Shown piece after piece: positions 2,140 to 52,318 of a stretch of DNA of 64,000 nt. How positions within the stretch are numbered: the stretch's first letter is position 1; every line of letters starts with the position of its first letter. A model generated the notes under the pieces. It was not told the DNA's origin, did no database searches, and worked only from the letters and a program-made list of their open reading frames with translations. The position numbers were made by a program, and so were the translations under genes. The stretch is from Membranipora membranacea. Lineage: Eukaryota > Bryozoa > Gymnolaemata > Cheilostomatida > Membraniporidae. The stretch spans positions 34,160,001-34,224,000 of the forward strand of contig OU612065.1 of NCBI GenBank assembly GCA_914767715.1. Direction: 5' to 3'.

Positions 2140-2280
2140 TCTAGGAACACTGACCAGCCTGGAAGAGCTGACGTTAGATGATAATAAAACACTGACAGAG
2201 TTACCAGATGAGATCGGGGGATTGAAGAGTCTACAGACTTTAAATGTATCAGAGTGTGGCCTCACCAGTCTGCCAAGCAG
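2140..2280 (+). CDS. Type A LRR exon A0 (two leucine-rich repeats)
   Basis: A 141-nt exon between TTATAG and GTAAAT, phase 2-2, encodes two ~23-residue LRRs including LEELTLDDNKTLTELPDEIG and LQTLNVSECGLTSLPS. No stop is present. Its 3' phase fits the Roc exon at 10092 across a 7.8-kb intron full of repeats. It could instead be a stray duplicated exon. Confidence 0.7.
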
Positions 2281-8200: not shown

Positions 8201-11200
8201 AGGGGCATGCTGCAGATTGCCATCTCAGCCAAATTTACCTCCTCCAAAATGCAGCTCTTTTGTTATTTCCTCATTTGGGTCATGTCACTACATATTTTGA
8301 AGAATTTTGTCTAATGCCTATTAATATACTAATCAAATACAGATTTTCAGTTCATTTTCCAAAGCAAATTTTAATAACAAACTAGAAGGCCTGAAAAACT
8401 GAAAGATCCCCAAAAACTTGTACACGTTCAAATGAAAATATTATTCCAACCTAAGAGAACCACTAGCTGCAGAGGGTAATGGTCACTGCTCACCGCTGAA
8501 CTGCAAACCTCATTGGTGAAAGATGTCCTCTGTTGGGTCTTATGTTCCAAAGTCAGAGAGACTGGCCTGCCTGAGCGCTTGGGCAGGCAGGTCACCACAC
8601 TAGTCCCCAACTAAATGACCGTAGCACCGCCCTATTTTTCTAGTTGTCATGTTATGTCTGAATTTTACTGGATGCAGGAACCAAATAAAAAAAAATATAA
8701 CAAACACAATAACACCATTTTCAGTTATTTAGACAATAGTCTAATTAAAGTTATTTTATTATGACCTAGATTTAAGTCTTGCAAACTGAAAAGATATGTG
8801 TTCTCGGCTTTTGGGTGAGAAGTTGCAGGGGATTGGAATGAAGTATCTCTACTTTTATATTATGAGTGAACTGTACACTGATAAACAAATTTGATATTTC
8901 ATCATAAATGTATTCTGTTTTGAATATTTCTACCGTATCTTGAAATAAGGCATTAAGCAATGTGTGTGTGTGTGTAGTTTCATGCACGCTTGTATCCTTG
9001 GTTTTGATGAGTTGGATTTAATTTTGCGCCAACCCATAAGTCGTCATCGAAATTGGCGTCCTAGAGACCTGCGAACAGGGCACAATGTTTTGTTGAAAAA
9101 TCATTTGAACTCCATCTGAATTGGTAAACAAGGTATATAAGTCAACTTCGTCTACTTTCTGACAAAATTTATAATGAATCTGCTTCCTACAGCAGGAAGC
9201 AGATTCATTATAAATTTTGGCTATATTATTATAAAAATGGCCATATAGAACATTAGTCTCAGAACACATGATTCTTTTGATAGACAATTTCTCACAGGAC
9301 TGGTCACGAATTCGCCAAATTACAGACACTAATTTTGCTTTTGAAACATTCATCGAAAGCTACTCTACCATTATTGAAAATTCAAGCAAGAAGACTAGTG
9401 CTAAAACCCAAATGCGACATTTTAAAAAGCCACCGATGACCACAGGATCATTGGAACTTAGAGAAAAGTGTAAAAGATTGCACATTAAATCTAAACAAGA
9501 ACAGGAGTTTCCAATACAGAAGCCAGCTAACCAATAAATTGCCTTCCAATTAGTCCTTTTTATGATATTTAGGAATTGTTAACAATTTCAGGTATTTCAA
9601 TGCGTCAGACCTTTTAAACTCTGCGAAGAACTGTCACAGTGTTACTATTACTGTTATATTGTCACTATTATTCCTCGAATGAACAGAACACCCCCCCCCC
9701 TAAACATTTTAGTATTTCACAAGATCATTATGGGGAAAGTGTGACAAATTTACATAAATCTGGTTAAGAAAAGTATTTCTATTTACATTTCAGAAAAGCT
9801 GTAAAATAGCAGACTCCTTTATTGATTTATCACAAGAAAATAATTATTATTTTCCTAATAAGGAATTCTGATGAGACAACAGAAATTTGTTCTACCATAG
9901 ACATCAGGTAGCAAGACAGAAATTGCACCATATTTAAAACCTAGGCACGGAATCACTGTCCAAATCGATAAAGATTCTTTTATTCCTACCAAATTCCATA
10001 GAAAATGCACTGTATGCTATTAAAATTGCAATGGATTCCTACACTTCTCATAGGTAAAAATATTTGAGCTATTCTATTTTTCTTTTTACAGCATGTCAAA
10101 CTTAGAAAATTTAAGGCTACTGAATATCAATAAGAATATAGCTCTACTCTCAATTCCCGCTGGAGTATGTCGACTCGATACACTCAAGTCAATAAAGTGT
10201 GAAGACTGTGCATCTCTGACAAGTCCACCTTATGCTGTCTGTAGACAGGGGCTGCTAGCAATGAGAAAATACTTTGCCGATCTGGAAGAAAATGTTGAGC
10301 AAAACAAAAAGTTTGTTCCAATAACTGTTTTTGGTCAAACTATGGCTGGTAAAACCAGCCTTGTTCGGTCAATGCAAGAAAATAAACGGGCTTTGACCAC
10401 TCGATGTAACAATAGCAAGCTAGATGAGGCCACCAAAGTGATCAAGGTGTGTGAGGTAGACGTTGATGAAAAATTCAAACTTGTATTTCATGACTTTGGT
10501 GGGCAAGCAGTATATCAGTTTGCCTATCAATTGTCACATAGATCACAGTATGTTCCCATGCTTGTCATAGACATTGCTGAATTTGACCGACTTGTAGCTG
10601 AACACGGAGAAGAGAATGCCTGTGAGACAGTCTGTTTTACATGGCTCTCCAACCTTTATTTGTCCTGTCCAAAAGCAGGCCAGCCTTTCGTGGTGCTCAC
10701 CCACTGTGATCTTATCGATAATGAAACCTGCAAAGCGAGAGTGAGTCAGTTGATAGAAGTGACTGAACGTCTACGCCTTAGGTTAATAGAGGAGGAGAAG
10801 GCAATGAGACCAATAAACAGTCCAATCTTCATAATGGAGAGTTTCTGTGATACATCTCAACCTCTTCTCTCAAAACACACACCCCTTCTCATATATAAAG
10901 GTTCCGGAACACAGGTAATCCTCGATCTAAAAACTTTCCTTGTGTCTGTTGGATTGCCTCTACTCACAGAGATTCCAGGTAGCTGGTATGTTCTGATGAA
11001 TTTGTGTGCAAACAGCACACAGCCATATCTTATGCTGGGTGAGCTAGACAAGCTCTTCTCTAATGACAAAGATCGCTTCATTCTTCAGTACCTTCATGAA
11101 ATCGGGCGAGTGATGTGGTACAGAAATCGAGTCAAACTAAAAAACATTGTGTTTCATCGCATTGAGCTGCTCACACACCTAGTTGAGTTGCTCTATGATC

Positions 11201-14200
11201 ACTGCAGAGAGGAAGCGTGGAATAAGCGTAGTTTTCTGGCATTCCAGCATGGTTACATGAGAATCAATCAACGGCAATACAATCATATGGTCCAATCATA
11301 CCTAAATACTGGAGTGATAAGGGACATTTTACTGCTCAACCTCCTCAAAAAAGAGTCCGAATTCAAATCCCAACCTGAGCTTGCAATCGAGGTATTGAAG
11401 GTCTTTCATTTGGTTTGTGGTCCTGTCAAGAAGGGCAGTGAAAGTCATTATATCGTCCCATACTTCAGTCAGAGAGAAATCACAATCGAGGAATCTGGAA
11501 AGTACATTCTTTTGAAAGTTGACATCTGTTTCAACGGACTGGCTATTCCTAGCTACGTATATCATCTTCTCGCTGCAAATTATGTGGATCTCCATATAAC
11601 GCCATCCAATTGTATTGAGGCTGGCTCCAATGGTGTTTGTGTGAGGGAAAACAATGGCACAATCAAGTACCTGCTTCATAACCATACTGAGAGAACCTTT
11701 TCCCTCCTGATACTGACCCCAACAAAACATGTCGATAAATCCTGGGACAGCCTGCTGTACACATTGCAACATTTGAGATCTCAACTGGAACAAGAATGGA
11801 AGGGCGCTCACTATGAGATAGTATTCTACTGTTCGCACTGCCTGCTCACTAAGAAGGAGAACCCAACCACTCAAGTCAATCCTGCATGGCTCAACAATCA
11901 ACATCAACCTTATACTGGCGATGAAACTTGTGACTGTATTCAGCAAACTTCAGCCAAAAGCCGGACTACTATTCCGTATCCACTGTTCTATCCATGTGAG
12001 TACAGTTTCACCAACTTATGTATGATTGATATGGCAATGAAAATTCTGGTCTGCTCTTTCTGCCTTCCTCTATAGATACCTTAATTCAAATTGTTTTTCT
12101 GATGCTTGCTATATTATGACATGCTACTATATGCTTGATAGGTAGCACCATCACAGAGAGAGGGGTTCAGACTTTAGATGAGTACATGTCAGAATTCGAA
12201 GTGGCTTCTCATGAATCACAAATAGAGGATATTGTGAAGGAAGTAAATTCTGAGAAAGTTCTTATTTACGCTTCAGATTTATATCCAGTCACGGCTGACC
12301 CAATGAGTAGTACACTGAAACATAAGGTGGGAAGATGTTGTTGATTTTCACCTTTTATATGTAATATTTTCAAGATGAACCCCACTGTTTTCACTCACAA
12401 CCTGCATACAATAAGATGGTAGTAAATTTACTGGATTTAGTGTGCCTACACACGCATTAGTCAGAGTCTTATCTTCTTGCAGAAGGTGTACAAAATGTCT
12501 GAGACTCGCGGAAGAGCGCTGATTATATCGAACACCTGCAATAACACAAGGAAAGGTTCAGAGCATGACTATCGGAATATTAAAGGAATGCTTGAGAAGT
12601 TTGGATTTATAACTGTAGGAGGTCACAAAAATTACACTGCAGAGGTAATGGCAATGTTTTTGCTCCGCCATTGTTTAAGCGCTCAAACGGTGACGGTATG
12701 CTGGTAGAGGCATTCCATTATCAAGAGAAAGTGGTTGATAATGAAATGCCTCTACCAGCATCCCGCCACCGTTTGAGCGCTTAAACTAGCTCCGCCACAA
12801 TGAAATAAACGCATTGTGACTATAGGAAAATTATTAATATTTGATCTAAAATTATAATAGTTAGAGGTGACTGTAACTCAGTTTGTAAGGTAGTATAGAT
12901 ATTTCATATGAGAGAGCCGGTGATCAATTCCCAGCAATTGCAGATGTATAAGAAGAAGCGACCAACCAAAGCAGCAGCATCTTGTTATCAACTTGATGCT
13001 ATTTCTTCTTCAATTTTTTTTTTAGCTGAAAATTAGTATCAACTGTTCAGGATAAGCTGCTAAATCTACTGTAATTCTCAAACTCAAAATCAAAGAAAAA
13101 CCTGGACTTTTGACAGTAAAGCAATAATTGCACATTGTGTCTACAACTTCCGATGACGTTACGTCGCCCCACAATTAAGTGCCTCATTTCAGCTGTATAT
13201 GGTGTCCTGTCTAGGTATGTTATTAAGTCTATGGTGAGATCCTATTTTTTGGCTTCAGGCTATATACGTACTCGAATCACTTATTTGTTGTTTGCATAGA
13301 TGATCGTTACGGCTATCCATTCAGAGACACAGCTAGTAGACTGGGAGACAGGAGAATCAGTACACAAACATCTCAACTCATTTGTGTTGGTCATCACAAG
13401 TCATGGTCATGAAGGGTCTGTGTCTGGTTCCAATGGTAAACATCTCGTAATCACAGAGCTTATGGATCTGCTTTCATCTGGGAATTTCCCCGCCATGAGA
13501 GGGAAGCCAAAGCTTGTCATCATACAGGCTTGTGCTGGTAGTAAGTTTATAAACTTGATCAATTATGGACAGTCAAATATTGTTCTAAGGGAGTAACTTA
13601 CTAAAAGTTCAACGATTATTTTTTAATTTCCATGTCCTTGTCATTTACGTCTGCATTCTCAGGCAGCGATTTACCGATGGTATGACATACACTCAGTAGA
13701 AAATTTGGGCATAAAAAATACTCTAAGTATTTGCTCTTATACTCATAAGACAAATTAGTTCTCGGTGAAAGTCAAGATTGTCTCTCTACTTGTAGGTAGG
13801 AAAGAAACACTTCCAGGAGACGTGCGTCCTTCTCAAGCACCACCCAATCAGAATCAGCTAGAAGTAGATCAGCCTCAACACAGCAATGGAGCCACAAATG
13901 AATCCCCTTCTACAGATCCTCATGATAACCCTATATCAGACTTCATCATTATGCAGTCCAGCTTTGATTGTAAGTTGTGAGAGACAATATTCCCTACTTT
14001 CTAATTGTGATGGTAGATGTGTTTGTAATGAAATGAACATAATTGTACTTTATATCACTGACAACCAGTTTGAAGGTTGTCTTGGTTTGTTGATGATTGA
14101 GTTATTTTAAATTATGAACAGTAGGACACCCAACTCAATCTGACGGGCACAGCTGAGCTGAGGCATATCCATCTTCTTTGTTTGAGTGATGTCATCGATC

Positions 14201-16143
14201 AGTTATTTTAACAGGATATCCCAGCCTTTGGCATGCACAACTCATTTGAACACTTACAGAGTATGATAACTAGCCACTTGGTCATACTAGGCAATAGTAG
14301 GAAATGCAAAAACAATTTTTTGTGTTCTTTTGCAGCATTCAAATCACATCGAAGTCCTAAAGTTGGCTCGCTGTTCATCCGCTGCCTGGTATCTACATTC
14401 TATAGATATGCTCACAGAGATCATCTCGAAGAACTGGCAGCAATTGTAAGTGATACATCTTACTGCAGTTTTAGTCAATGTATGATGCTTGTAAACAATT
14501 TTTACACAATCAATCGAGTTTTTTGCAGTACAGTTATTAATTGTCTCAACAAATTGTTGGTTAATGCTTGAGAGTTTAGTAAGACTTGATGTAAGCATGT
14601 GTATTTTTACAGCATAATCTCAAGCTGAATCAATCAAGCACAAATACAACACACGTTTTTTTAGGGTGGGGGGGGGGGGTAAATGGACTGAATAATACAT
14701 AGCATGTTAGTCACAGCTAAGTAAATGATTCCACCCGCACCTTTGTGACGGCCATTGGCTTATTTTACAGGTCAGTGAGACTGTAGTAAAGGCTGGAGCA
14801 CAGAGAACAGAATATCTGCAAAGAATCGGAAAGCAGCATTATCCCTCTATACCTCAGACTAGATCTACATTTCTAGGTAATAAGTTCTATCTGCAGCCTG
14901 GGATCAATATGAGAACAGAGGACCACCCAGAATCACTCAGAAATCCTGTGTTACGCAAACCTACAGCTACAAGGATTCACACAGAACCTGGTATGTATGA
15001 TGTTATGTATGATATAGAAGAAATGAAAATCATAGAAACTTTTTACTCGTTTCAATGCCGTTGCGCCACTTACGATGCTAATGCTGCTGCTGCTGCCGCC
15101 GCCGCTGCTGCTGCTGCTGCTTACAGTGTCCTGTCTAGGTTGAGGAAGTTTTTATTTTTACCTGATTATGACACTGCCTCAGTTTTTTCTCCTACACACC
15201 CGCTGATATGTCTGTAACTTGTGAATTAACCAAAATATAAGGTACATATGTATTTTTTGAGTAATGAAAAAGCATTGTGCAATAATACATATCATGCAAT
15301 ATTTATTAGTGCTAGAGATGCGTTAGACAAAGAGCAGGGGCGTATATTCTAAAAATTTTCACTCACTGACTGTTTAGAGATGAGCATAATGATCGGGCGC
15401 AGCCCGATCCACACGGCGTAGGCGTGGCGGGGAGGGTGTGGGAGGGGCGCTTAAGCGCCCTCCCACCACGGAAATTTTTGCATATCGGTAGCAAAATAGT
15501 GCAAGCAGAGAGGTATTTCAATAGCTCACTGAGGTATTTCAATAGCTCACTGAGCTGTTGGGTACTTTCACAAAACAACTCAATAGCAGTAGAAGATTAC
15601 GGAAAAATTTTGAAAAAAAACTGACCTAAATGGGATTCGAACCCACAACAATCTGATATACTGTGATTATAAAGCAGACGCTCTACACACTGAGCTATTC
15701 AGTCACTCACGGAAATCCGTGGGCCGTGAGTGCTAATATACGCCACTGACAAAGAGTGGCCCAATGGTTAAGGGTGCGAACTTGCAAACCTTGAAGACCA
15801 AGTTCAATTCCCAGCCCGGCAAATGATAATGTTGAAAATAAGATGCAAATAACATGTTATGCTTTCTACCTGATGCGGCCACAAATTATTTTCTTGCCCA
15901 CCCACTGATATGTTGTCATGAAGGAACAACTTGAAAATTCACAAAAAAAAAACATGAGTGAAATATGATTGGCCTATGGTATGGAAAAGACATTGTGATG
16001 TCTTACCATAATATACAATGTTAATTGGATTTTTCTCTTCTGCAGACCTAATACATACATATAGAACCGGAGAGGCAGAGCAGATGAAGACTTATTATCA
16101 GTGGTCAGTAAAGAGAAACTCAGTAAAGAGGAACTCACCATGA
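2140..16143 (+). CDS. LRR-Roc-COR-caspase (ROCO-caspase) gene, 3' part; exons listed separately
   Basis: This is the gene-level call. Predicted exons are 2140-2280, 10092-11995, 12142-12326, 12483-12644, 13300-13537, 13796-13969, 14336-14445, 14771-14990 and 16046-16143. Phases agree at every junction (2, 1, 0, 0, 1, 1, 0, 1). The product carries LRRs, a Ras-like Roc GTPase with P-loop, DxxGQ and THCD motifs, a COR dimerisation region, then caspase p20 (SHG, QACAG) and p10. ROCO proteins are cytosolic GTP-regulated switches; caspases are cysteine proteases activated by proximity. By inference the LRRs sense, Roc-COR gates dimerisation and the caspase executes. The 5' exons lie before the window. 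The use of 2140-2280 and the last exon are the least certain parts. Confidence 0.72.
2281..4394. other. Intronic part of the duplicated unit, no gene supported
   Basis: This holds an AT microsatellite near 2350-2420 and two blocks conserved among the duplicated units (near 3300-3770 and 4050-4270). Short open frames in them are broken in some copies (for example a TAA in the minus-strand frame near 3633), so I do not call a gene. Confidence 0.6.
4395..4735 (-). mobile_element. CR1-like LINE 3' fragment (RT C-terminus), copy 1
   Basis: The minus-strand frame reads LLQKKAFRLICNIQIIPNHL and continues for about 100 residues, the typical C-terminal tail of CR1/Jockey-type reverse transcriptases (LQKKAxRII). 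The 5' side is cut by the MITE inserted at 4736. Copies lie at 51.3-51.8, 56.39-56.95 and 58.09-58.66 kb and at the window end. Confidence 0.7.
4736..5099. mobile_element. 364-bp non-autonomous DNA transposon (MITE), copy 1
   Basis: The element starts CATTCTGCGCATGCTCAG and ends GAGAGTCAGTATG, with short inverted ends (CATTCTG/CAGTATG). It is flanked by a perfect direct repeat GTAAAAATA (4727-4735 and 5100-5108). A second copy of exactly the same length is at 46868-47231. The 8-9 bp duplication is compatible with hAT or Mutator-like transposition; the superfamily is not settled. Confidence 0.8.
5505..5912. repeat. Long inverted repeat, ~180-bp arms
   Basis: The left arm (about 5510-5695) and right arm (about 5727-5908) are reverse complements with scattered mismatches, around a ~30-nt centre. 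Both arms encode a similar peptide reading outward (KIDLSGLSAG and FDSMFDVIDKW in one arm). It is a foldback element or a transcribed long hairpin. Confidence 0.8.
5945..6150 (-). mobile_element. tRNA-derived SINE
   Basis: On the minus strand the tRNA-like head has an A box TAGCTCAGTTGG and a B box GCTTCGAATCC, followed by a body down to about 5945. Anticodon-arm pairing is not convincing, so this is a SINE head and not a functional tRNA gene. Confidence 0.65.
6366..6635 (-). mobile_element. Dimeric tRNA-like SINE with inverted halves, copy 1
   Basis: The minus strand has an A box TAGCGCCATC-type complement and a perfect B box (GGTTCGAGTCC complement at 6431-6441). A second tRNA-like half in opposite orientation is joined at about 6520. 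The copy at 38426-38689 has the same head-to-head layout and the same tail (GGGTGTATACCTCT), so the dimer is a family trait and not a chance juxtaposition. Confidence 0.75.
6792..6954. repeat. Direct repeat of intronic sequence, copy 2
   Basis: This matches bases 1-173 with a few substitutions and a short deletion. After 6954 it diverges into LINE-derived sequence. Confidence 0.8.
6845..7911 (+). mobile_element. Degenerate CR1-like LINE (EN end and RT fragment)
   Basis: At 6900-7090 an endonuclease C-terminal pattern is visible (LPDHLPIAG). At 7740-7860 the linker (NEYFSKVGSNL) is joined directly to the RT motifs GVPQGSVLGL and FADDTN. The RT domain between them is missing, so the copy has an internal deletion. 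A MITE interrupts it at 7108-7318. Stops are frequent and it is inactive. Confidence 0.65.
7108..7318. mobile_element. MITE of the CTTTCAATTAG family, copy 1
   Basis: The right terminus TTAATTGAAAGATCCCCC matches the inverted ends of the element at 20978-21222 in opposite orientation. The internal part (GCTCACTCAGAATTTATATA, GAGTGAGCGATCAGATTGCG) matches as well. The left end is diverged. Confidence 0.6.
7912..9017. other. Intronic sequence, nothing recognised
   Basis: No conserved coding pattern is visible. A short TG microsatellite lies at about 8960-8978. Confidence 0.5.
9018..9540 (+). mobile_element. Degenerate LINE linker fragment
   Basis: The frame from 9268 reads DWSRIRQITDTNFAFETF and later KKPPMTTGSLELREKCKRLH. 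This matches the region between endonuclease and RT in CR1-like LINEs (D-W, then K-P-W/P-M-T-x-G, then basic residues). It ends in TAA at about 9535 without an RT domain. Confidence 0.6.
9164..9220. repeat. Perfect 26-bp hairpin with 5-nt loop
   Basis: The arm ending AATGAATCTGCTTCCT pairs exactly with AGGAAGCAGATTCATT and beyond, 26 bp in all, around the loop ACAGC. It lies inside the LINE remnant. Confidence 0.85.
10092..11995 (+). CDS. Exon encoding last LRRs, Roc GTPase and COR domains
   Basis: The acceptor TTTTTACAG precedes C-ATG in the same phase 2 as the LRR exons; the donor is CCAT|GTGAGT (phase 1). Numbered from that ATG (10093), residues 1-60 are LRR-like and end in the typical QGLLAMRKYF segment. 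Roc occupies about 74-280: P-loop GQTMAGKTS at 81-89, DFGGQ at 134-138, THCD at 203-206. COR follows (about 285-480) with GRVMWYRNR and VFHRIELLTHLVELL, then a COR-B-like region to about 630. No stop interrupts 634 codons. Roc binds GTP and COR mediates dimerisation in this family. The open frame continues past the donor to a TAG at 12073, so an unspliced, caspase-less isoform is possible. Confidence 0.9.
12142..12326 (+). CDS. Linker exon between COR and caspase
   Basis: Acceptor GATAG and donor AAG|GTGGGA give phases 1 and 0 that fit both neighbours. The encoded ~61 residues (TITERGVQTLDEYMSEFEVA and onward, ending YPVTADPMSSTLKHK) are acidic and match no domain I recognise; they resemble a caspase prodomain linker. 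Confidence 0.7.
12483..12644 (+). CDS. Caspase p20 exon 1
   Basis: Acceptor CTTGCAG, donor GAG|GTAATG, phase 0-0, 54 codons. It reads KVYKMSETRGRALIISN, then GSEHDYRNIKGMLEKFGF and NYTAE. This is the classic start of caspase p20: Y-x-M, RGxALIIxN, R-x-G-S-x-x-D, LFxxLGF, LTxxE. Confidence 0.85.
12675..12784. repeat. Long hairpin, ~50-bp arms, in caspase intron
   Basis: The arm TTTAAGCGCTCAAACGG... (12675-12725) pairs almost perfectly with the arm ending CCGTTTGAGCGCTTAAA (12734-12784) around a ~10-nt loop. Imperfect direct repeats GCTCCGCCA(..)TG flank it. It may be a MITE or a small-RNA hairpin. Confidence 0.85.
12855..13020 (+). mobile_element. Possible degenerate tRNA-derived SINE
   Basis: A weak A box (GTAACTCAGTTTG) and B box (GTGATCAATTCC) are spaced as in a tRNA, and T-rich sequence follows. 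This is low-confidence pattern matching. Confidence 0.3.
13300..13537 (+). CDS. Caspase p20 exon 2, catalytic His and Cys
   Basis: Acceptor TTGCATAG, donor GCTG|GTAGTA, phase 0 to 1. It contains FVLVITSHGHEG (catalytic His codon 13402-13404) and KPKLVIIQACAG (catalytic Cys codon 13531-13533). Canonical caspases have QACRG; here the fourth residue is Ala. Both catalytic residues are present. Confidence 0.85.
13796..13969 (+). CDS. Caspase inter-subunit linker and start of p10
   Basis: Acceptor TACTTGTAG, donor GATT|GTAAGT, phase 1 to 1. A polar Pro/Asn/Gln-rich linker with several Asp residues (for example STDPHDN) precedes ISDFIIMQSSF, which matches the p10 opening (x-D-F-L-x-x-x-S-T). Asp residues in the linker are candidate activation cleavage sites by analogy. 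Confidence 0.8.
14336..14445 (+). CDS. Caspase p10 exon
   Basis: Acceptor TTTTGCAG, donor ATT|GTAAGT, phase 1 to 0. It encodes FKSHRSPKVGSLFIRCL and YAHRDHLEELAAI. This fits the p10 core SxR-x-x-x-x-GSxFIxxL and the following helix. Confidence 0.85.
14771..14990 (+). CDS. Caspase p10 C-terminus and tail
   Basis: Acceptor TTTTACAG, donor CCTG|GTATGT, phase 0 to 1. It encodes VSETVVKAGAQRTEYLQRIG, then QHYPSIPQTRSTFLGNKFYL, the end of the p10 fold, and a ~30-residue polar tail. If the donor is not used the frame continues through a polyalanine stretch to a TAA-type end at about 15217. Confidence 0.8.
15079..15122 (+). repeat. (GCN) repeat, intronic or polyalanine-coding
   Basis: A run of GCT/GCC triplets stays in frame with the preceding caspase exon and would encode about 14 alanines if the intron at 14991 were retained. 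It is otherwise an intronic microsatellite. Confidence 0.7.
15335..15748 (-). mobile_element. hAT-type MITE carrying a tRNA-like unit
   Basis: Termini CAGGGGCGTATATT and AATATACGCCACTG are inverted repeats with the hAT-like CAG start. A perfect 8-bp target-site duplication ACAAAGAG flanks them (15327-15334 and 15749-15756). Inside, on the minus strand, is a tRNA-like unit (A box AATAGCTCAGTGTGTAG, B box GGTTCGAATCCC at about 15643-15710) and GC-rich hairpins (GATCGGGCGCAGCCCGATC). A second copy is at 59440-59795. Confidence 0.85.
15757..15900 (+). mobile_element. Possible tRNA-derived SINE
   Basis: TGGCCCAATGGTTAAGGG (A-box-like) and AGTTCAATTCCC (B-box-like) are spaced like a tRNA and followed by non-tRNA sequence. 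The acceptor stem does not pair well, so a functional tRNA is unlikely. Confidence 0.45.
16046..16143 (+). CDS. Predicted last exon of the ROCO-caspase gene
   Basis: Acceptor CTTCTGCAG with a good pyrimidine tract. Phase 1 fits the previous donor. It encodes about 32 basic residues (TYRTGEAEQMKTYYQWS) and stops at TGA 16141-16143. A different frame is open from 16064 to a TAA near 16251 (SKEKLSKEELTMTFF), so the C-terminus is uncertain. Confidence 0.5.
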
Positions 16144-38846: not shown

Positions 38847-41800
38847 GTGAGTTTAGATTAGATGTAAATGTTGTTGACCCTGATTCTGGCTTTGATTTAG
38901 AAGGGAATATGAAGTTTTACTGTATAGCCAGTTTTCAAATTTGTTACTTTATATCACCAAATAGTTGAGGTTATTTTAGTATATCGAGTTTGGTATGAAG
39001 ATGACACTGAGCCAGAGATTGGTGAGTTTCCTGGTCATATAAACTACAGAGATGTCACACTGTCAGAATTACTAACAGATACACAAAATCTGACTGTCAC
39101 ACATATGTCTGTCAAAGGAGCCATACCACCACTAGATCAGATAGCTCCTAAACTAAAACATCTCATGTTACAGGGAATGAGCACAAATCAGATAAAGAAG
39201 TGAGTGAGATTTATACAATGATTATATACATATACTTCTATTGTAAATCAACATTCATCTTCTCAAATGTTTTTCATGCAGTGCCAGAACAAATAACTTT
39301 AAATAAGGAAAAGCGGAGAGACAAAGAAAAAAAATACACTAGTGATGAAATTAACAAGATTTAAGGTGTTTGATAGATGTTAAAAAGAGTAAAATGAAAA
39401 TTTGTACTTGGCTTTACTTTGATTGTTATAGCAATCAATGTTATATGATATAGTATGATGTAATATGTTACACATGTCATATGATGTTATGGCCATGTAT
39501 AATACCTCTGTATACTACCTGAACTGGGCATACCATCACTACATCATAAGCCATGGTTTTAGTGTCATTTCATCCACCATTATTCTAGTTACATACCCTA
39601 CTGACCTTAAGTTTTCAAGTGGTTTAATAATTCCCGGTTAATGACAGCAACAGAATACTTAATATGTTCGTGTATATTCTACCACCTACATCTACCACCT
39701 ACCATCTACACCACAAAAAGATGTGTGCATCAGTGGTATGACTTTAGCTTGGCATGCACAGGTTCCCAGGTTCTACTCCTGGTTGGGGAAGGGATATTTG
39801 CAGTTGAGTTGAAAGCTTGAAATTTTCTCATCTTGGACAAACTTACCAGAAATTAGCGGGCCTAAAATCCGTGAATAATTAAGACTAGTGAAAAAAGTTT
39901 GAGTTGTGCCCTCTGCGAATTAGGAACCCGCGAACTATTTTTTGGTAAAGACTATTTTATATTATATTACAGCATGTGTACAATGGTTAACCTCACAGAG
40001 CTGAATGTATGTGGTAATGAGGACCTGCAGATATTACCAGAGTGGATCTGTAAGTTGGAGAACTTGACAAAGTTAGATGTGTCATACTGCGGTCTGGAGG
40101 AACTACCAGAGAGGTAAATAGCGCTGATCAATTAGCATGAATATTTGTTTGCGATGATTTATGTGCACTAAAATGCCAAGCATTGGACAGCTAATGACCT
40201 TTGAGACAGTTCTCAAAGTTTTGAACAAGATAAAATGCAATATAAAGGTAACGTAAATAGTTGTGAAGTCATGACGATTTCAGATGATGTGAGGTGAATT
40301 TCTGGTAAACTATGAAGATTTACTGATCTTATATATTACAGCATGTGTACAATGTTTAATCTCACGGAGCTGAATGTGAGAAGTAACAGGAGCCTGGGGA
40401 GATTACCAGACTGGATCTGTGAGATGAAGAGCTTGACAAAGTTAGATGTGTCACACTGTAGTCTACAGGAACTGCCAGAGAGGTAAATCAGACGTGTTGA
40501 TCCATGCCCATTTCTCTCTGTTTTTGCTGTTATTTCCGCCTTGTCAGTTAGATGTGTCAATTTATTTAATATAATATCAAATTGAGGTTGATTTGTAAAA
40601 TCCAAATGCAAGCTCTATAAAATTGATCCTCAGCAGGCTAACCATAAATACTATATCCTCTAGGGTTATGGTATTCTGCATGATAATAATAATAATTAAG
40701 TTTTTGCCAAACTTGACGGCTGGTAGTCTTGGAGTTGTCGGCACCTAGTTCTTAGGAAAGGCTGAGTATCTTATTTGTATGCATTTAGCATGAATATTTG
40801 TTTGCGATGATTTATGTGCACTAGAATGCCAAGCATTGGACAGCTAAAGACCTTTGAGACAGTTTTCAAAGTTTTGAACAAGATAAAACGTAATATGAAG
40901 GTAACGTAAATAGTTGTGAAGTCATGACAATTTCAGATGATGTGAGGTGAATTTCTGGTAACAAAATGAAACTATGAAAATTTACTGGTCTTATATATTA
41001 CAGCATGTGTACAATGGTTAACCTCACGGAGCTGAATGTGAGAAGTAACATGAGCCTGAAGAGATTACCAGACTGGATCTGTGAGATGAAGAGCTTGACA
41101 AAGTTAGTTGTGTCACACTGTAGGCTACAGGAACTGCCAGAGAGGTAAATCAGACGTGTTGATCCATGCCCATTTCTCTCTGTTTTTGCTGTTATTTCCG
41201 CCTTGTCAGTTAGATGTGTCAATTTATTTAATATAATATCAAATTGAGGTTGATTTGTAAAATCCAAATGCAAGCTCTATAAAATTGATCCTCAAGTCAT
41301 GACAATTTCAGATGATGTGAGGTGAATTTCTGGTAACAAAATGAAACTATGAAAATTTACTGGTCTTATATATTACAGCATGTGTACAATGGTTAACCTC
41401 ACGGAGCTGAATTTGAGAAGTAACATGAGCCTGAAGAGATTACCAGACTGGATCTGTGAGATGAAGAGCTTGACAAAGTTAGTTGTGTCACACTGTAGGC
41501 TACAGGAACTGCCAGAGAGGTAAATCAGACGTGTTGATCCATGCCCATTTCTCTCTGTTTTTGCTGTTATTTCCGCCTTGTCAGTTAGATGTGTCAATTT
41601 ATTTAATATAATATCAAATTGAGGTTGATTTGTAAAATCCGAATGCAAGCTCTATAAAATTGATCCTCAAGGCATGACAATTTCAGATGATGTGAGGTGA
41701 ATTTCTGGGAACAAAATAAACCTATGAAGATTTACTGATCTTATCTATTACAGCATGTGTACAATGGTTAACCTCACAGACCTGAATGTATGTGGTAATG

Positions 41801-44800
41801 AGGACCTGAAGAGATTACCAGACGGGATCTGTGAGATGAAGAGCTTGACAAAGTTATATGTGTCACACTGTAGTCTACAGGAACTGCCAGAGAGGTAAAT
41901 AGCGCTGATCAATTAGCATGAATATTTGTTTGCGATGATTTATGTGCACTAAAATGCCAAGCATTGGACAGCTAATGACCTCTGAGACAGTTCTCAAAGT
42001 TTTGAACAGGATAAAATGCAATATAAAGGTAACGTAAATAGTTGTGAAGTCATGACAATTTCAGATGATGTGAGGTGAATTTCTGGTAACAAAATGAACC
42101 TATGAAGATTTACTGATCTTATATATTACAGCATGTGTACAATGGTTAACCTCACGGAGCTGAATGTGAGAAGTAACAGGAGCCTGAAGAGATTACCAGA
42201 CGGGATCTGTAAGATGAAGAGCTTGACAAAGTTAGATGTGTCACACTGTAGGCTACAGGAACTGCCAGAGAGGTAAATCAGACGTGTTGATCCATGCCCA
42301 TTTCTCTCTGTTTTTGCTGTTATTTTCGCCTTGTCAGTTAGATGTGTCAATTTATTTAATATAATATCAAATTGAGGTTGATTTGTAAAATCCGAATGCA
42401 AGCTCTATAAAATTGATCCTCAAGGCATGACAATTTCAGATGTGAGGTGAATTTCTGGGAACAAAATGAAACTATGAAGATTTACTGATCTTATATATTA
42501 CAGCATGTGTACAATGGTTAACCTCACGGAGCTGAATGTGAGAAGTAACAGGAGCCTGAAGAGATTACCAGACTGGATCTGTGAGATGAAGAGCTTGACA
42601 AAGTTAGATGTGTCACACTGTAGTCTACAGGAACTGCCAGAGAGGTAAATCAGACGTGTTGATCCATGCCCATTTCTCTCTGTTTTTGCTGTTATTTCCG
42701 CCTTGTCAGTTATATGTGCCAATTTATTTAATATAATATCAAATTGAGGTTGATTTGTAAAATTTAAATGCAAGCTCTATAAAATTGATCCTCAGCAGGC
42801 TAACCATAAATACTATATCCTCTAGGGTTATACATACTTGCCAAGTCTCCCGATTTAGGCGTGACCCTCCAGATTTTTACACCCACCTCCCACTTTTTGT
42901 AAATCTCACTATTTCCTCCAGATTTTAGAGAAAACAGTCCAATCGCAATTTTTTGATAGTTATCCAAGCACATGTTGTTGTTGACTAGTTATTGTTAAGG
43001 TCTTTGCACACAAAATTGAAAGAATTATCAAATTAAATAATCCTAACAAATTTACCTGTTTAGTTAAGATTCAGCCTATTATTGTAAATGACCAATAGCA
43101 TCCTCTCATAACTCACAACACTGACTGTCATTGGTCACAATATAAAGTAGCTAGTCAAGTGTATACATTTAGTTTTCATTTCCTTTCAGATCACACATTT
43201 TTTAGTATTAATTGTATACTGTCTACTCTAGTTAAATTTAAGTGAAAGGAAATAGAAACCTCACAATTCCAAAGGTAGGTCCACTACAATTTAACAAAGC
43301 TTGGACCAAAGACTTTGAAACATATTTAATGTTAGTCAAACAGGAATATAGTACCTTATCTGGATTCTCACTGTCTGTGACTGAGCACATTTTCAGATCT
43401 TGATGATGCATGGGCACTTGTAGCCATGGACACCTGGGACTTACATGCCTCTACTTTGCCAATGGGGTGTTTGATACTGGACATTGACAATGTAAAGGTA
43501 TGTATGTAAGAGTCCCAGGGGCCCATGGATTGATTGTAATTGTTTGAAGTGTATTTCACCTCAGTTTTATATTTAATTAAGTACTAGTACAAACATGAAA
43601 TTATTTGGGGTCAAATATACACTTTTAGCCCTTCCTAGTGGCTGGAAACGCTCTCAGAGCTTCTGCAGACGGGGCTCCGCCCCGTACCCCGTTGGGGGGC
43701 TCACACCGCCCCCCAAACCCCCAGGTGGGTGACTCGGGTGCTTCGCACCCTCGAAGCACCACGTTGTGGTGCAGTATCGCCGTAAAGTGAAATCTCCCTA
43801 TTTTGTATTTAGATTACTTGGCAAGTATGGGGTTATGGTATTCTGCATGATAATAATAATAATAAAGTTTTTGCCAAACTTGACGGCTGGTAGTTTTGGA
43901 GTTGTCGGCACCTAGTTCTTAGGAAAGGCTGAGTATCTTATTTGTATGCATTTAGCATGAATATTTGTTTGCGATGATTTATGTGCACTAGAATGCCAAG
44001 CATTGGACAGCTAAAGACCTTTGAGACAGTTTTCAAAGTTTTGAACAAGATAAAACGTAATATGAAGGTAACGTAAATAGTTGTGAAGTCATGACAATTT
44101 CAGATGATGTGAGGTGAATTTCTGGTAACAAAATGAAACTATGAAGATTTACTGATCTTATATATTACAGCATGTGTACAATAGTTAACCTCAAGGAGCT
44201 GAATGTGAGAGGTAACAGGAGCCTGAAGAGATTACCAGACGGGATCTGTAAGATGAAGAGCTTGACAAAGTTAGATGTGTCACACTGTAGTCTACAGGAA
44301 CTGCCAGAGAGGTAAATCAGACGTGTTGATCCATGCCCATTTCTCTCTGTTTTTGCTGTCATTTCCGCCTTGTCAGTTAGATGTGTCAATTTATTTAATA
44401 TAGTATCAAATTGAGGTTGATTTGTAAAATCCAAATGCAAGCTCTATAAAATTGATCCTCAAGTCATGACAATTTCAGATGATGTGAGGTGAATTTCTGG
44501 TAACAAAATGAAACTATGAAAATTTACTGGTCTTATATATTACAGCATGTGTACAATGGTTAACCTCACGGAGCTGAATGTGAGTGGTAACGGGAGCCTG
44601 AAGAGATTACCAGACTGGATCTGTGAGATGAAGAGCTTGACAAAGTTAGATGTGTCACACTGTAGTCTACAGGAACTGCCAGAGAGGTAAATCAGACGTG
44701 TTGATCCATGCCCATTTCTCTCTGTTTTTGCTGTTATTTCCGCCTTGTCAGTTAGATGTGTCAATTTATTTAATATAATATCAAATTGAGGTTGATTTGT

Positions 44801-47800
44801 AAAATCCAAATGCAAGCTCTATAAAATTGATCCTCAAGTCATGACAATTTCAGATGATGTGAGGTGAATTTCTGGTAACAAAATGTAACTATGAAGATTT
44901 ACTGGTCTTATATATTACAGCATGTGTACAATGGTTAACCTCACGGAGCTGAATGTGAGTGGTAACGGGAGCCTGAAGAGATTACCAGACTGGATCTGTG
45001 AGATGAAGAGCTTGACAAAGTTAGTTGTGTCACACTATAGGCTACAGGAACTGCCAGAGAGGTAAATCAGACGTGTTGATCCATGCCCATTTCTCTCTGT
45101 TTTTGCTGTTATTTCCGCCTTGTCAGTTAGATGTGTCAATTTATTTAATACAATATCAAATTGAGGTTGATTTGTAAAATCCAAATGCAAGCTCTATAAA
45201 ATTGATCCTCAAGTCATGACAATTTCAGATGATGTGAGGTGAATTTCTGGTAACAAAATGAAACTATGAAGATTTACTGATCTTATATATTACAGCATGT
45301 GTACAATGGTTAACCTCACGGAGCTGAATGTGAGTGGTAACAGGAGCCTGAAGAGATTACCAGACTGGATCTGTGAGATGAAGAGCTTGACAAAGTTAGA
45401 TGTGTCAGACTGTAGGCTACAGGAACTGCCAGAGAGGTAAATCAGACGTGTTGATCCATGCCCATTTCTCTCTGTTTTTGCTGTCATTTCCGCCTTGTCA
45501 GTTAGATGTGTCAATTTATTTAATATAATATCAAATTGAGGTTGATTTGTAAAATCCGAATGCAAGCTCTATAAAATTAATCCTCAGCAGGCTAACCATA
45601 AATACTATATCCTCTAGGGTTATGGTATTCTGCATGATAATAATAATAATAAAGTTTTTGCCAAACTTGATAGCTGGTAGTTTTGGAGTTGTCGGCACCT
45701 AGTTCTTAAGAAAGGCGGAGCATTCTTATTTGTATGCATTTAGGGTAAGTCAATCTGCATGATATGTGAAAATCTTTGATGAAATTTCTTATCCACAGCA
45801 GAGATTGATGGTGGCCACGATTTCATTGGTCAACCAGTTTTCAAATTGGATTGTGGCTTTTGCCATTTTAGGGCCACTCTCATGATATATACAAAATTAC
45901 CCTGTTTTTGTATTTTGTAATGTAGCCTAAGATCACTCAGTCTCCCAGCAGGTACATCTTCCCTCTAAAAACAACTAAGTATGATAAACTTTGAGATAAC
46001 CTTGAAGTTTTATCAAATATCAGGAGTCGGCACAAAGCTCCCTCTGTTTTCACTAAAACTTATTTAAGGTTTTGAATGAGTAGGTCCAAAATCAGGACTG
46101 GAGTAAAGTCATAGATTCAAACAATAGTCAAACCTCCATGGAAAACTTCATAGCTACACTTCAAGCTATCAAAAAAAGCACATGAATTAGATTTTAGACA
46201 GCCTTGGATGACAACCGAATTGTACTCACTCACATAGGAACATACCCGACTTCATCGCAAGGTGAAAAATATCCCTATAACCTAATACTCAAGAAAAATT
46301 ATCAGAAATTACAAATTATGTTTTAAATTAAGAACGCTAAAAGAGATTATTTTGCACACAAATTTGAGCCATGTAAGAACAACAAAAGTTGAAAAATGAA
46401 AATATATCAGAAAAATCATCACTAAGAGCGAGACAAAAGATAGTAATTTAATGATAAAAAAGGATGGTTCTGAGATCACTGATGCGTTAGGTACTGTTCA
46501 AAAGTTTAACCAATTTTTTGTGAGTTTTGGGTCGTCACTAGCTAATGATTTACCAGAACCTTCATGTGATTATGAGTGCTCCGGAAAATTTGAGGAAATT
46601 TGTTTTTAGAGATTAAATCTGTAATTAGCAAGCTGAAGACAAAGGAAGCCAAAGGGTGTGATTTAATCAGCGCATGTACAATAAAGAAAACTACCTGAGG
46701 TGCTCATACTCGAAACCTTTCTAAGCTAGTTCAGACTGGATCAACAGACTAACTGGTTCATACTGACATTATCAGAGAAATATCAGCAGATTAACTGACA
46801 ATGTTCTTATTGAACACTACAAAAAACACCATTTATCAAATCTTATCACAATGCAATCTCCGTTCCTCATTCTGCGCATGCTCAGCTCTGGGCATGAGCT
46901 GATCTCTGCAAAATTGAGTCTCGGAATTCCGAAGCCATCTAATTGGCTACCTGCTCTGGTGACATACTCCCCAAAGCGTGCGGATTTGTTATTAATAGTT
47001 ATCCTCTCTTGTCATTATTAGCTGATTTTGATTGACAGTTTATGCAGGGGATATCCCATTTCCCCTTTCCAAAGTTGCATTCAGAACCCAAACTAAACTC
47101 ATTGCTCTTGCACATGCGCAAATTCGAGTCACGCATGATGCATACTTAGCATTACGACAGCTGCTTTGTGGTAATGATAGCCTAGTTTATCAGTGATCTA
47201 CATGCCCACTCAGATCACGAGAGTCAGTATGCCGTTCTCTGTCATAGTCTAGGATCACTCACTAGCCTAGAGGAGCTGAGTTTAGATAATAATTACACAC
47301 TGACAGAGTTACCAAATGAGGTTGGGGGATCGAATAGGCTAGGATATTAGATATGTCACAGTGTGGCTTCACCTGTCTGCCATTCACCATTCTAGTTACA
47401 TACCCTACTGACCTTATGTTTTCAAGTGGTTTAATAATTCTCAGTTAATGACAGAAACGGAATACTTAATATGTTCATGTATATTCTACCATGACACCAC
47501 AATAAGATGTGTGCATCAGTGGTATGACTTTAGCTTGGCATGCAGAGGGTCCCAGGTTCTACTCCCGTTTGTGGAAGGGATTTTTGTAGTTGAGTTAAAA
47601 GCTTGAATTTTTCTCATCTTGGACAAACTTACCAGAAATTAGCGGGCCTAAAATCCGTGAATAATTAAGACTAGTGAAAAAGGTTGGAGTAGTGCCCTCC
47701 GCAAATTAGGAGCCCGCGAATTATTTTTTGGTAAAGACTATTTTATATTATATATTACAGCATGTGTACAATGATTAACCTCACAGAGCTGAATGTGAGA

Positions 47801-50800
47801 GGTAACAGTAGCCTGAAGAGATTACCAGACGGGATCTGTAAGATGAAGAGCTTGACAAAGTTATATGTGTCACACTGTAGGTAGGAACTGCCAGAGAGGT
47901 AAATCAGACGTGTTGATCCATGCCCATTTCTCTCTGTTTTTGCTGTTATTTTCGCCTTGTCAGTTAGATGTGTCAATTTATTTAATATAATATCAAATTG
48001 ATGTTGATTTGTAAAATCCAAATGCAAGCTCAGGCTTGATCAACAGTCTAACTGGTTCAGACTGACGTTATCAGGGGATTATCAACTGATTTACTGACTA
48101 TGTTTATAATAAATACTACATAAAAAATACATTACCAAATCTTATCACATCACAATCTGTGTTCTCTGTTATAGTCTAGGAACACTGACCAGCCTGGAAG
48201 AGCTGACGTTAGATGTTAATAAAACACCGACAGAGTTACCAGATGAGATCGGGGGATTGAAGAGTCTACAGGTATTACATGTATCAGGGTGTGGCCTCAC
48301 CAGTCTGCCAAGCAGGTAAATATATATATACATTCATTGCATTTTGAGTTTGAGTCACTTTAAGAACATATTGATGTGCACTGAATGAATTTATGTATAT
48401 ATATATAAATGTGTGCTGAATCTCAAGCTCTAAGCTGAAAATATTGCATTATGAGACTGGTGTGTAGAATGCAATTACCAACAAGGTGACCCTCGATTGC
48501 AATTTTTTGTCAAATTTTTATAAACGCTGTAGGACGTAAATATTAACTGCATGATATTGTCATAAACCAATTTTACGGCAGGATATTAAGGATGTGTCTT
48601 AAGTGCTGTTGGTCAGAGTTTTGGGTATACCAATTTGCCAGATCTGAGAGTTTGAGACTGGTGTGTAGAATTGAATTACCAACCAGGCGAGGTTCAATCG
48701 CAATTTTTTGACTTATCTTTCTAATAACTGTTAGGATCCAATGTAAATATTATCTGCATGATATTATCATAAGCCAAATATATTTAAGATTTGTCTGCAG
48801 CGCTGTTGGTCAGAGTTTTTGGTATGACAACACCTGAGAGTTAGAATCTAAAATACAAATATAGGATTTATTGTAAAGTCATAGATACCGAAGCACAACC
48901 CAAGTATTTACTTTAAAACTGAGGTGCTCATATTCTCAAAAGATTTCATGCAGGGTTAGGCTTAAGCTAGTTCAGGTTTGATCAACAGTCTAACTGGTTC
49001 GGACTGACGTTATCAGGGGATTATCAACTGATTTACTGACTATCCCTATAAAAAATACTACATAAAAAATACATTACCGAATCTTATCACATCACAATCT
49101 GTGTTCTCTGTTATAGTCTAGGAACACTGACCAGCCTGGAAGAGCTGACGTTAGATGATAATAAAACACTGACAGAGTTACCAGATGAGATCGGGGGATT
49201 GAAGAGTCTACGGACATTAAATGTATCAAAGTGTGGCCTCACCCGTCTGACAAGCAGGTAAATATATATATTTATATACATTCATTACATATTGAGTTTG
49301 AGTCGCGTTTAGAACATATTGATGTGCACTGAATGAATTTATACATATATAATATATATGAATTCATTGCATGTTGAGTTTAGAAACTCTAAGAACTTAT
49401 TGATGTGTGCTGAATCTCAAGCTCTAAGCTGAAAATATTGCAATATGAGACTGGTGTGTAGAATGCAATTACCAACAAGGTGGGTTTCAATTGCAATTTT
49501 TTGTCAAATTTTTATAAACGCTGTAGGACGTAAATATTAACTGCATGATATTGTCATAAACCAAATTTATGGCAGGATATTAAGGATTTGTCTTAAGTGC
49601 TGCTGGTCAGAGTTTTGGGTATACCAATTTCCCAGGTCTGCGAGAGATAGAATTTACAATACAAGTATGGAATTTATGGAATCCCACTGATATGCAAATT
49701 ATGCCTGGAATCGTCAATATGATATAAGTATTTAGATTGATTCCTTTTTAGGGCAGATGTCCGCAATATAAACATATAGGAATGGAAAGTGATATACATA
49801 CTAAAGAATATTATGAAGATCATATCCCCTTGTAAAAATCACTGACCCAGCTTTGTTGCCAGTATTATAGGAGTTGCTTGCACCGATGTGTTTGTATACG
49901 CTGTTTGTCAGGTTTTTGGCTAGGCCAACCGCAAGGAATATTGATAATAGAAAAGGCAATTGAAAATATCATAGCCTATTGATCGTTGGTGTGCAGTCTT
50001 TGTATTAAACCTGTGGCCAAACATCTCTGGCAATCACTGCCAAGAAAATTTATGTTGTAAGGTAGGAATTAATGAGCTATTTTTTAGTTAGCTGCAAACG
50101 ATATTCCGCTAATATATAAAACTTGCAGATACTATAAATGGCAAAAAGATTTTCCCATATAAATTGTAAAACTAATAATTCATACATTACTATCAATTTA
50201 TTTATAAGCGGTCATACTCTCCAAATATTACCAGACACCATAATAGGTTGATAGACTGCAAGATGGATTACAATGTCTCCAGGGGATGGTTTCAATAAGA
50301 GACTCAAAACATCCCTTATAGCTTCAAAATTCAGCAATAAATAGATAGACAGACATAATGTTACCCATCATTCTGTAAGTGTTTGCATTGCTGTTTGTCC
50401 GGTCTTTTTATATCAGCAAGCTTTGAAAAATAGAAATTAGAGAAGAAATTTGAGAATATCAAATTTTATTTTACATCAAAAATATATAATCCCCTTTGTT
50501 AGAGCTTACATGTCTCAAAGTTGTAGGCTGGGCATGTTACAGAGACCAGGTTATCTTTTTGTTATGCCAATGCAGATTCACAACCCAAGGCCTGCAGGTC
50601 AGATTCACTTTCTCCCATCTCTATCCAGGTTAATAGATCACCCAATAGGGATTCCATACATGTGCTCCACTTTGGCGCCAAAAATCTAATAAAAGTTTGT
50701 TTACATTGATAAGGAAGAATTTGATGTCAGGAGTGGGACTCTCAAAAAACAATGCCATATACTATCAAACAATAATTACTGATAAATAAATTTACTAATT

Positions 50801-52282
50801 TTTCTCAGTAAATAGTGATTATTTTTTGAAAAACATTATAGCTGCACATTCCTCCGCTATATTTGACTCTGCGGATGGATTTTTGAAAGCTTATTATCTA
50901 TGTTTCAAACAAAGTAAAATATGAAAAACTGTAGGAATACAATACATTTGACTACTCATTCTTTTCCCGAGTCCAGTTTTTAGTTATATTACAATGGCTA
51001 GGCTCGATGTGATTACCATGATGTCAAAGTTATTAGGATGTAAATTTGAGCATAGCAAATTGGTAAAAGTAACTTGCATTTTTTTGTCCCTAATATTACC
51101 CCCCACACAAGAAAACCGCTGCAAGTGTAGTAACGAAGTCTCTATAATGAATGCTGGACCCGAACCGCAGGCCACCTTCAAATCTGAGGTGCTCATACTC
51201 TAAACCTTTCACGCGGGGTTATAGGCTTAAACTTGTTTTTTTTTTAAATGTTTTACAAAATTAGCCGTCAAGAAAAAACTAAAATATGGAAAAAAATCAA
51301 TCAAGATGGCGAAAAAAATCAATCAAAACATCAACATTTGAATAATTTATAATTGAGTATTGAACATAAATTAAATGGTATATTGTTAAAAGTAGATGAT
51401 ATCATATTAACTAAGAAGTTATTTGAAGTTAGGTGTAGCTTGAGCATGTCTCTCATATTAAAAATGCACGAAAAATTAGAATTTTCTAACATAAATGGTG
51501 GACATGTCTTGTTTATCAATTAATGTCCAGTTATGCTAGTATAATATATGTTGAGCACTGGTAGATGTAGGAGGTGTAATGACCCTGATAATTCATTAGT
51601 TGGTACCAGGTGATTAGGAATGATTTGTATATTACATATCAACCTGAAGGCTCTCTTCTGGAGTAAAAATATGTCCTTTAGTATATAGCTTGGTGATAGG
51701 TTGTAGTAAATATGGATACCACTTATGATGTGGCAAAAAATTAAATGATGGTAAAGTATAAAAGATGTTTTGTTGTCAAAAAACGCCTACAAAGTTGTTA
51801 TAGTGTAATTGCCTTTGCTTCCTTTTAACGGACTAAGGAAACATGGTCATGCCATGTTAGCCTGTCATTCATGATGAAACCTAACAGATTTCTTTCAGGC
51901 TTTATCAACAGACTTACTGGTTCAGACTGACATTATTAGGGGAATATCAACTGATTCTCTGACTATGTCCATAATAAATACTGTAATAAAATACATTTAC
52001 CTAATCTTATCATAACACTATTATGTGTTCTCTGTTATAGTCTAGGATCACTCACCAGCCTGGAGTCCCTGTGGTTAAGTGGTAATAAAACCCTGACAGA
52101 GTTACCAGATGAGATCAGGGGATTGAAGAGTTTGCAGACATTAAATGTATCACAGTGTGGCCTCACCATTCTGCCAAGCAGGTAAATATATATATTTATA
52201 TACATTCATTACATATTGAGTTTGAGTCGCTTTAAGAACATATTGATGTGCACTGAAAGAATATATGTATATATAAATAAAA

Positions 52283-52318
<36 letters not shown>

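Follow-up and report, generated by a model that had tools for sequence, protein, structure and literature searches.

Does a locus of the bryozoan Membranipora membranacea, in which exons for a Roc-COR GTPase lie directly upstream of exons for a caspase, encode one polypeptide or two, and what might such a polypeptide do? The window, by which we mean the whole stretch of DNA analysed (64,000 nucleotides), covers positions 34160001-34224000 of contig C1 in a genome of 339 Mb and 18 contigs. As read from splice sites, exon order and coding signals, the exons concerned appear to constitute one gene for a single LRR-Roc-COR-caspase chain, and two separate genes are very unlikely.

Structure of the gene

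Splice-joining of the window sequence yields eight plus-strand exons between 10092 and 16143, and the seven GT-AG introns separating them join in phase, in agreement with the initial annotation, which had described the exons as lying in compatible phases (table 1). The product, of about 1,030 residues when counted from the first Met in exon A, would comprise the end of an LRR region, a Roc-COR GTPase, a short linker and the p20 and p10 parts of a caspase, in this order.

Table 1. Predicted features of the LRR-Roc-COR-caspase gene and associated LRR cassettes (positions within the window).
Feature	Position	Strand	Evidence
Upstream LRR cassette exon of 141 bp with two LRRs, in the phase of exon A	2140..2280	+	phase, repeat register
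Exon A: last LRRs, Roc GTPase, COR	10092..11995	+	paralogues, Pfam, fold matches
Roc domain, residues 77-206	10321..10710	+	Pfam match
P-loop GQTMAGKTS	10333..10359	+	alignment of 19 members
COR-A, residues 309-370	11017..11202	+	Pfam match
Exon B: COR-to-caspase linker, 61 residues, without a Pfam family	12142..12326	+	paralogues, selection
Exon C: start of caspase p20; putative S1-pocket Arg (NTRKGSEHD)	12483..12644	+	alignment, relatives
Exon D: core of p20, including catalytic His and Cys	13300..13540	+	alignment, paralogues
Catalytic His codon (SHG)	13402..13404	+	aligned with caspase-9, CED-3
Catalytic Cys codon (QACAG)	13531..13533	+	aligned with caspase-9, CED-3
Exon E: p20/p10 linker, start of p10	13796..13969	+	splice-join
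Exon F: p10, putative S1-pocket Arg (SHRSPKVGS)	14336..14445	+	alignment, paralogues
Exon G: remainder of p10	14771..14990	+	splice-join, paralogues
Exon H: putative last exon including stop; least certain part	16046..16143	+	
Second LRR cassette array, same phase and size	39973..61841	+	

When scored with a codon model for which exon A was the training set, exons B to G give positive values and are free of stops in the predicted frame; exon F has a second open frame with a slightly higher score. Exon B reaches 0.13 bits per codon, against 0.07 at the 99th percentile of noncoding pieces, and it is open throughout, a property of only 2.6% of noncoding 61-codon pieces. The score of exon H is slightly negative, so that of all the exons it is the one least securely assigned to the gene; AATAAA motifs occur 3′ of it at 16385 and 16423. 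For exon D, an end at 13537 was considered and replaced by 13540. A GT lies four bases past the QACA codons in all 20 genomic neighbourhoods of related copies (10 kb each, the best 20 of 150 by similarity to the query rather than a random sample, with the window itself included as L021), the exon end reading GGCAGTAAGT in six paralogues versus GGTAGTAAGT in the window; this shared GT led us to take 13540/13541 as the donor, giving QACAGS.

The Roc-COR module

To judge from profile matches and predicted fold, exon A encodes a ROCO module with an intact P-loop and with COR directly after Roc, and GTP binding is predicted. The Pfam matches of the spliced window protein to Roc (E = 1.6e-5) and COR-A (E = 0.002) both lie below the Pfam cut-offs; across 19 aligned family members, Roc matches all and COR-A 15, and the first Gly of the P-loop and its GKTS are invariant (GxxxxGKTS). 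The structure predicted for exon A alone matches LRRK1, C. tepidum Roco and LRRK2 over both Roc and COR, structural alignments extending COR to about residue 595 (11877). Pfam, the P-loop and the fold match together bear out the full Roc-COR module that had been claimed here.

The caspase

The caspase part, judged by its alignments, is complete, with p20 and p10 both there, and cleavage after Asp is predicted. Pfam Peptidase_C14 matches residues 705-955 (E = 5.8e-30) over model positions 1-224 of 233, and the best-scoring solved caspases are caspase-9 and then CED-3 (an order of sequence scores, not a tree). The His of SHG, the Cys of QAC, the Gln preceding it and the Arg residues of NTRKGSEHD and SHRSPKVGS all align on their counterparts in caspase-9 and CED-3, so the complete p20 and p10 with catalytic His and Cys of the initial annotation stand. 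The two Arg and the Gln presumably form the S1 pocket for Asp. The fourth residue of the pentapeptide QACAG is Ala; the available text of a study on amphioxus gives R, Q or G at this position of QACXG (PMC2575513). Exon E carries LEVD and STD in the p20/p10 linker, possible self-cleavage sites.

The alignment with CED-3 starts within exon B, a mild hint that this exon is part of the caspase chain. Pfam detected no CARD or DED prodomain in exon B and the start of exon C, nor elsewhere in the spliced part inside the window, and NACHT is likewise absent from the Pfam matches of that part. A search of the caspase part against NCBIfam gave no match.

One gene or two

The frame of exon A continues to an in-frame stop at 12073-12075, and the locus could on this ground be read as two adjacent genes, an LRR-Roc-COR gene ending at that stop and a separate caspase gene downstream. 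The ends of exon A point elsewhere. Its start is preceded by an AG and supplies the rest of a split codon, and joining the exon to the upstream LRR cassette gives ...LTSLPS-SMSNLENLRLLNINKN..., a seamless LRR. At its 3′ end, 16 of 18 metagenome relatives reach a conserved Pro-Cys (P0017 stops at it, and P0005 and P0007 diverge before it), and the residue that follows is E (eight), K (six) or M (one) in 15 of the 16, the sequences differing beyond. These relatives were compared as proteins and their donors inferred from read-through, with E, K and M fitting read-through of GTGAG or GTGAA, GTAAG or GTAAA, and GTATG, respectively. Such a residue in 15 of the 18 relatives, followed by unconserved sequence, argues against a genuine C-terminus at the stop. 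Besides the window there are 19 paralogues, and in 18 of them the COR exon ends at a T|GT donor (GTGAGT in 11, GTAAGT in four, GTTAGT in three), that of L032 not being readable. By these signals both ends of exon A are splice junctions.

The two-gene reading is further contradicted by exon B, which begins only 146 bp after the COR exon, and by exon C, at the start of which a Gln (CAG) can be read back in six of ten relatives, as at a phase-0 acceptor; the other four start at an internal Met. This Gln suggests that a further exon precedes those of the caspase. In all of the best 20 of 150 neighbourhoods, exon A lies 5′ of B, C and D on one strand in the order A-B-C-D, which led us to reject a chance adjacency of Roc-COR and caspase. 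We rejected the two-gene model on this conserved order, the conserved donors and the 146-bp spacing, and its remaining probability is close to nil. Transcripts ending after the COR exon and a separate promoter for the caspase, the scenario that the initial annotation had named against itself, are very unlikely on the same evidence and on that of selection on exon B (see below).

A different possibility is that one gene yields two forms, the fused chain and an LRR-Roc-COR form without protease that arises by intron retention or alternative 3′ ends and acts as a regulator or decoy. The intron between exons A and B is indeed short, the pyrimidine tract of its acceptor is weak, and an AATAAA is found at 12804 in the intron after exon C; however, the read-through sequence is unconserved among relatives and neither AATAAA nor ATTAAA occurs between the exon A donor and exon B, and we regard this possibility as unlikely.

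A multi-copy family

The gene, as the genome-wide matches indicate, is a member of a multi-copy family with LRR cassettes, which goes beyond the single gene claimed earlier. At least 150 relatives of exon D were found in the genome with an 80-residue query (150 of 225 candidates were scored), and there are at least 145 Peptidase_C14 matches, counted per exon among the best candidates. The exon D matches listed are spread over ten contigs (31 on C9, 30 on C1, 24 on C5, 18 on C11, 16 each on C10 and C8, six on C3 and three each on C2, C4 and C7), many of them grouped in same-strand clusters. The combination of Roc-COR with Peptidase_C14, sought beyond this one gene, recurs in the window's own genome, in each of the 20 neighbourhoods selected as most similar.

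Exon A is a single open stretch to its end in 18 of these 20 and broken or partial in L026 and L032. The neighbourhood stretch ends 1.8 kb past the start of exon D; up to this limit, exons E and G were each detected in 14 of the 20, exon F in 15 and exon H in none, and L032-L036 showed neither E nor F nor G. In other clusters, a COR end lies upstream of the caspase in L006, L007 and L009, and none was found within the short flanks of L004, L005, L008, L010 and L011, a set including other caspase types. Three exon D copies on C11 (2801400-2807916) lie at a spacing of only 3.1 kb, which leaves no room for a complete gene each, so that some copies need not carry Roc-COR and probably lack it. As a separate observation, the caspase-like ORF at L004:1282-2331 has, by eye, FFDSST in place of QACxG and may be catalytically dead.

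Selection and exchange between copies

We compared the window with its paralogues by dN/dS over tblastn-aligned segments only, which for exon B often comprise 19-46 of the 61 residues and favour conserved stretches. Against the diverged copies L030 and L033-L039, the ratio is approximately 0.18-0.23 for exon A (dN 0.18-0.22, dS about 1), 0.22-0.42 for exon B (dN 0.18-0.53, dS 0.76-1.8) and 0.15-0.22 for exon D (dN 0.11-0.13, dS 0.5-0.8); L032, with its fragmentary exon A, gives similar ratios. The values show purifying selection between diverged copies, including, as far as the alignments extend, the linker exon B, whose identity to diverged paralogues is 38-68% where aligned. Near-identical copies on C1 give a mixed picture based on few changes, with dN equal to or above dS in exon B of L026-L029 and in exon G of several. 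The exon B acceptor AG is kept in all the copies shown in the alignment, and the exon C acceptor is CAG in those shown except L031, which has CAA.

It may be asked whether many copies are decaying or catalytically dead, the family being mostly a cluster expansion with little function. Such decay would fit the interrupted or partial exon A of L026 and L032, the damage to two LRR cassettes near 47.2 and 47.8 kb, and the recent duplications at 99%. We nevertheless find it quite improbable, given that exon A is open in 18 of 20 copies, that no stops occur in the best-aligned exon segments of any of the 20 neighbourhoods, and that diverged copies are under purifying selection.

Two copies are mosaics. 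L031 is 93-100% identical to the window up to about 12.6 kb and 79-86% thereafter where alignable, with a dS of 0.016 in exon A versus 0.66 in exon D; L020 has the reverse pattern (a dS of 0.19 for exon A and of 0 to 0.08 for exons B-G). These two copies suggest that gene conversion or unequal crossing-over has swapped Roc-COR and caspase modules between members of the family.

LRR cassettes

The window contains 19 LRR cassettes of two sequence types, one 5′ of the gene and 18 in the downstream array, and 17 of them are intact 141-bp exons in identical phase. Of the damaged two, that at 47248 has no donor of the usual kind and an early end to its frame, and that at 47761 is 138 bp long with a stop. 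We infer from phase and repeat register that the upstream cassette is in the same gene as exon A, across a 7.8-kb intron. The array, which has a period of 375 bp at 40.9-42.8 and 44.1-45.6 kb, presumably supplies the sensor of the gene that follows in the cluster, and the next Roc-COR-caspase copy is L027 (C1:34.236-34.246 Mb); L030 has five LRR-matching open stretches 5′ of its Roc-COR exon.

Cassettes have been duplicated together with their surroundings. The segment 1547-2686, which includes one LRR cassette as well as a portion of a 182-bp tandem repeat, recurs at 56956-58095 (1,140 bp, 99.3% identity), and the module around the upstream cassette is also found at 61556-64000 (94.5% over 2,487 columns). 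The pN/pS ratio is 1.21 among 11 type-A copies and 1.30 among six type-B copies, figures without a significance test, and the slight excess of nonsynonymous over synonymous changes per site is only suggestive.

Relatives outside the genome

A metagenome search with exon A returned 24 matches, of which 18 are relatives of the exon and six match LRR-Roc-COR proteins in part (23-36%), at least two of these being bacterial. Among the 18 exon A, ten exon C and seven exon D metagenome matches, Roc-COR and caspase were not placed on one contig, and exons C and D were likewise unpaired. P0025, P0030, P0031 and P0032 are 97-99% identical to copies in the window's genome and probably come from the same species. 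Among viral contigs, 600 pattern matches included no relative; in prokaryote genomes, three loci (L001-L003) from archaeal bins match at 31-34% across the Roc part.

A possible mode of action

We consider it likely that this one gene encodes a single-chain receptor-protease, LRR-Roc-COR-linker-caspase, working in the following manner. The LRRs would meet a ligand or a damage signal and autoinhibition would be released; Roc-COR would switch its dimer state with GTP and GDP, bringing together two tethered caspase domains, which would be activated by proximity like caspase-9 and CED-3, cleave the linker between their own p20 and p10 after Asp and set off cell death or some other proteolytic response. 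One polypeptide would then do the job of an NLR or Apaf-1 plus an adaptor plus a procaspase. GTP gating, proximity activation and the receptor role are proposals. Caspase-9-like domains require dimerisation, and a caspase of this kind fused to a GTP-controlled Roc-COR dimer would therefore activate its own protease. In the available accounts, ROCO proteins are thought to be GTP-dependent dimers (PMC4104024), and artificial dimerisation of a caspase leads to apoptosis (PMC2575513).

The regulation might conceivably run in the reverse direction, with the caspase cutting the COR-caspase linker to free LRR-Roc-COR as a signal, or with Roc-COR serving mainly to keep the caspase monomeric and inactive. 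Exon B does contain the Asp-ending and potentially cleavable tetrapeptides YASD and VTAD, but it is poorly conserved, with no fixed cleavage site evident, and we judge a reverse regulation to be rather unlikely compared with activation of the caspase by Roc-COR.

The number of copies and the LRR cassettes suggest a role in immunity or in telling self from non-self. The family might accordingly form a second, NLR-like repertoire of dozens to more than 100 clustered LRR-ROCO-caspase receptors, diversified by cassette duplication and module exchange and triggering an adaptor-free caspase response in immunity or self/non-self recognition; we see the chances of this broader proposal as evenly balanced. 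If true, this animal would have a receptor repertoire independent of NLRs that triggers a caspase directly.

Comparison with known systems

In the apoptosome, caspase-9 or CED-3 is joined through CARDs to a separate NTPase, Apaf-1 or CED-4. The idea of a nucleotide-switched platform is common to that system and the present one, and caspase-9 and CED-3 are the nearest solved caspases by sequence; the difference is that the platform of the apoptosome is a separate NTPase, whereas the GTPase here is covalently attached. The initial annotation knew of no described animal ROCO protein with a C-terminal caspase. Our searches of the text of an open-licence library are in line with this, as they found no description of a ROCO-caspase, and as far as these searches reach, a caspase covalently joined to a GTPase that switches its dimer state is undescribed in animals.

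ROCO proteins have been divided into three groups in the available text of a review, i.e. LRR-Roc-COR proteins, proteins that carry a kinase at the C-terminus, and DAPK1 (PMC6337361). The first group (MFHAS1/MASL1, C. tepidum Roco) resembles the present protein in having LRRs directly before Roc-COR, and the predicted fold is like that of C. tepidum Roco; it is defined there, however, by having only LRRs before Roc-COR (PMC6337361), whereas in the present gene Roc-COR is succeeded by a linker exon and a caspase, placing the protein outside the group as defined.

The joining of a ROCO receptor to a cell-death effector is a known theme; the caspase as effector appears to be new, and as a gene family unusually informative. 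Early animals go beyond the three groups of the review, and among the nearest parallels is sea-anemone Novel Gene 1, an LRR-Roc/Ras-COR-TIR_2 protein reported from all sea anemones examined, which likewise unites LRR-ROCO and an immune effector in one chain; its effector is TIR_2 instead of a caspase, and the section devoted to it does not describe LRR cassette exons (PMC5094078). Amphioxus has LRRs-caspase hybrids, in which LRR recognition is wired to a caspase as it is here, as well as TNFR-caspase hybrids, but the main text of that report contains no Roc, COR or GTPase, and hence describes no GTPase switch (PMC2575513). Trichoplax, an early animal, is credited in the available text with at least 17 ROCO genes, whose partners include CARD, death, TIR and other domains, that is caspase-recruiting or death domains in contrast to the protease itself (PMC4104024). 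The ROCO genes of brown algae share with the present family the LRR-ROC-COR order, shuffled LRR exons, many copies and a proposed immune role, and differ by the caspase, which the available part of that paper does not mention (PMC11378527). In the sponge Dysidea avara, an expanded NLR repertoire has been reported whose genes are, in the available text, recognised by their NACHT and LRR domains, whereas Pfam matched no NACHT in the part of the present protein inside the window; the legend of its figure 2 names CASc and COR among the domains drawn, and judged from this legend a COR-caspase protein may already have been drawn there unremarked (PMC12909245).

The family also offers a test system in which protease activity could serve as the read-out of how nucleotide state drives Roc-COR dimerisation, a matter debated for LRRK2, and in which the origin of apoptosome-like activation could be studied.

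Other features of the window

The intron between exons C and D contains, at 12673-12786, a 52-bp inverted repeat with 94% complementarity and a 10-bp loop, resembling a small foldback transposon. Reverse transcriptase ORFs matching Pfam RVT_1 occur at 19137-20000 and 53471-55693 (minus strand) and are probably LINE elements; a further RT-like motif was noticed by eye at 7615-7911. An exon at 23106-23579 encodes a translation-factor-like GTPase (GTP_EFTU, E = 1.7e-18), which we take to resemble the U5 snRNP factor EFTUD2, and an ORF at 28599-29117 consists of collagen triple-helix repeats (Pfam Collagen, E = 4e-27).
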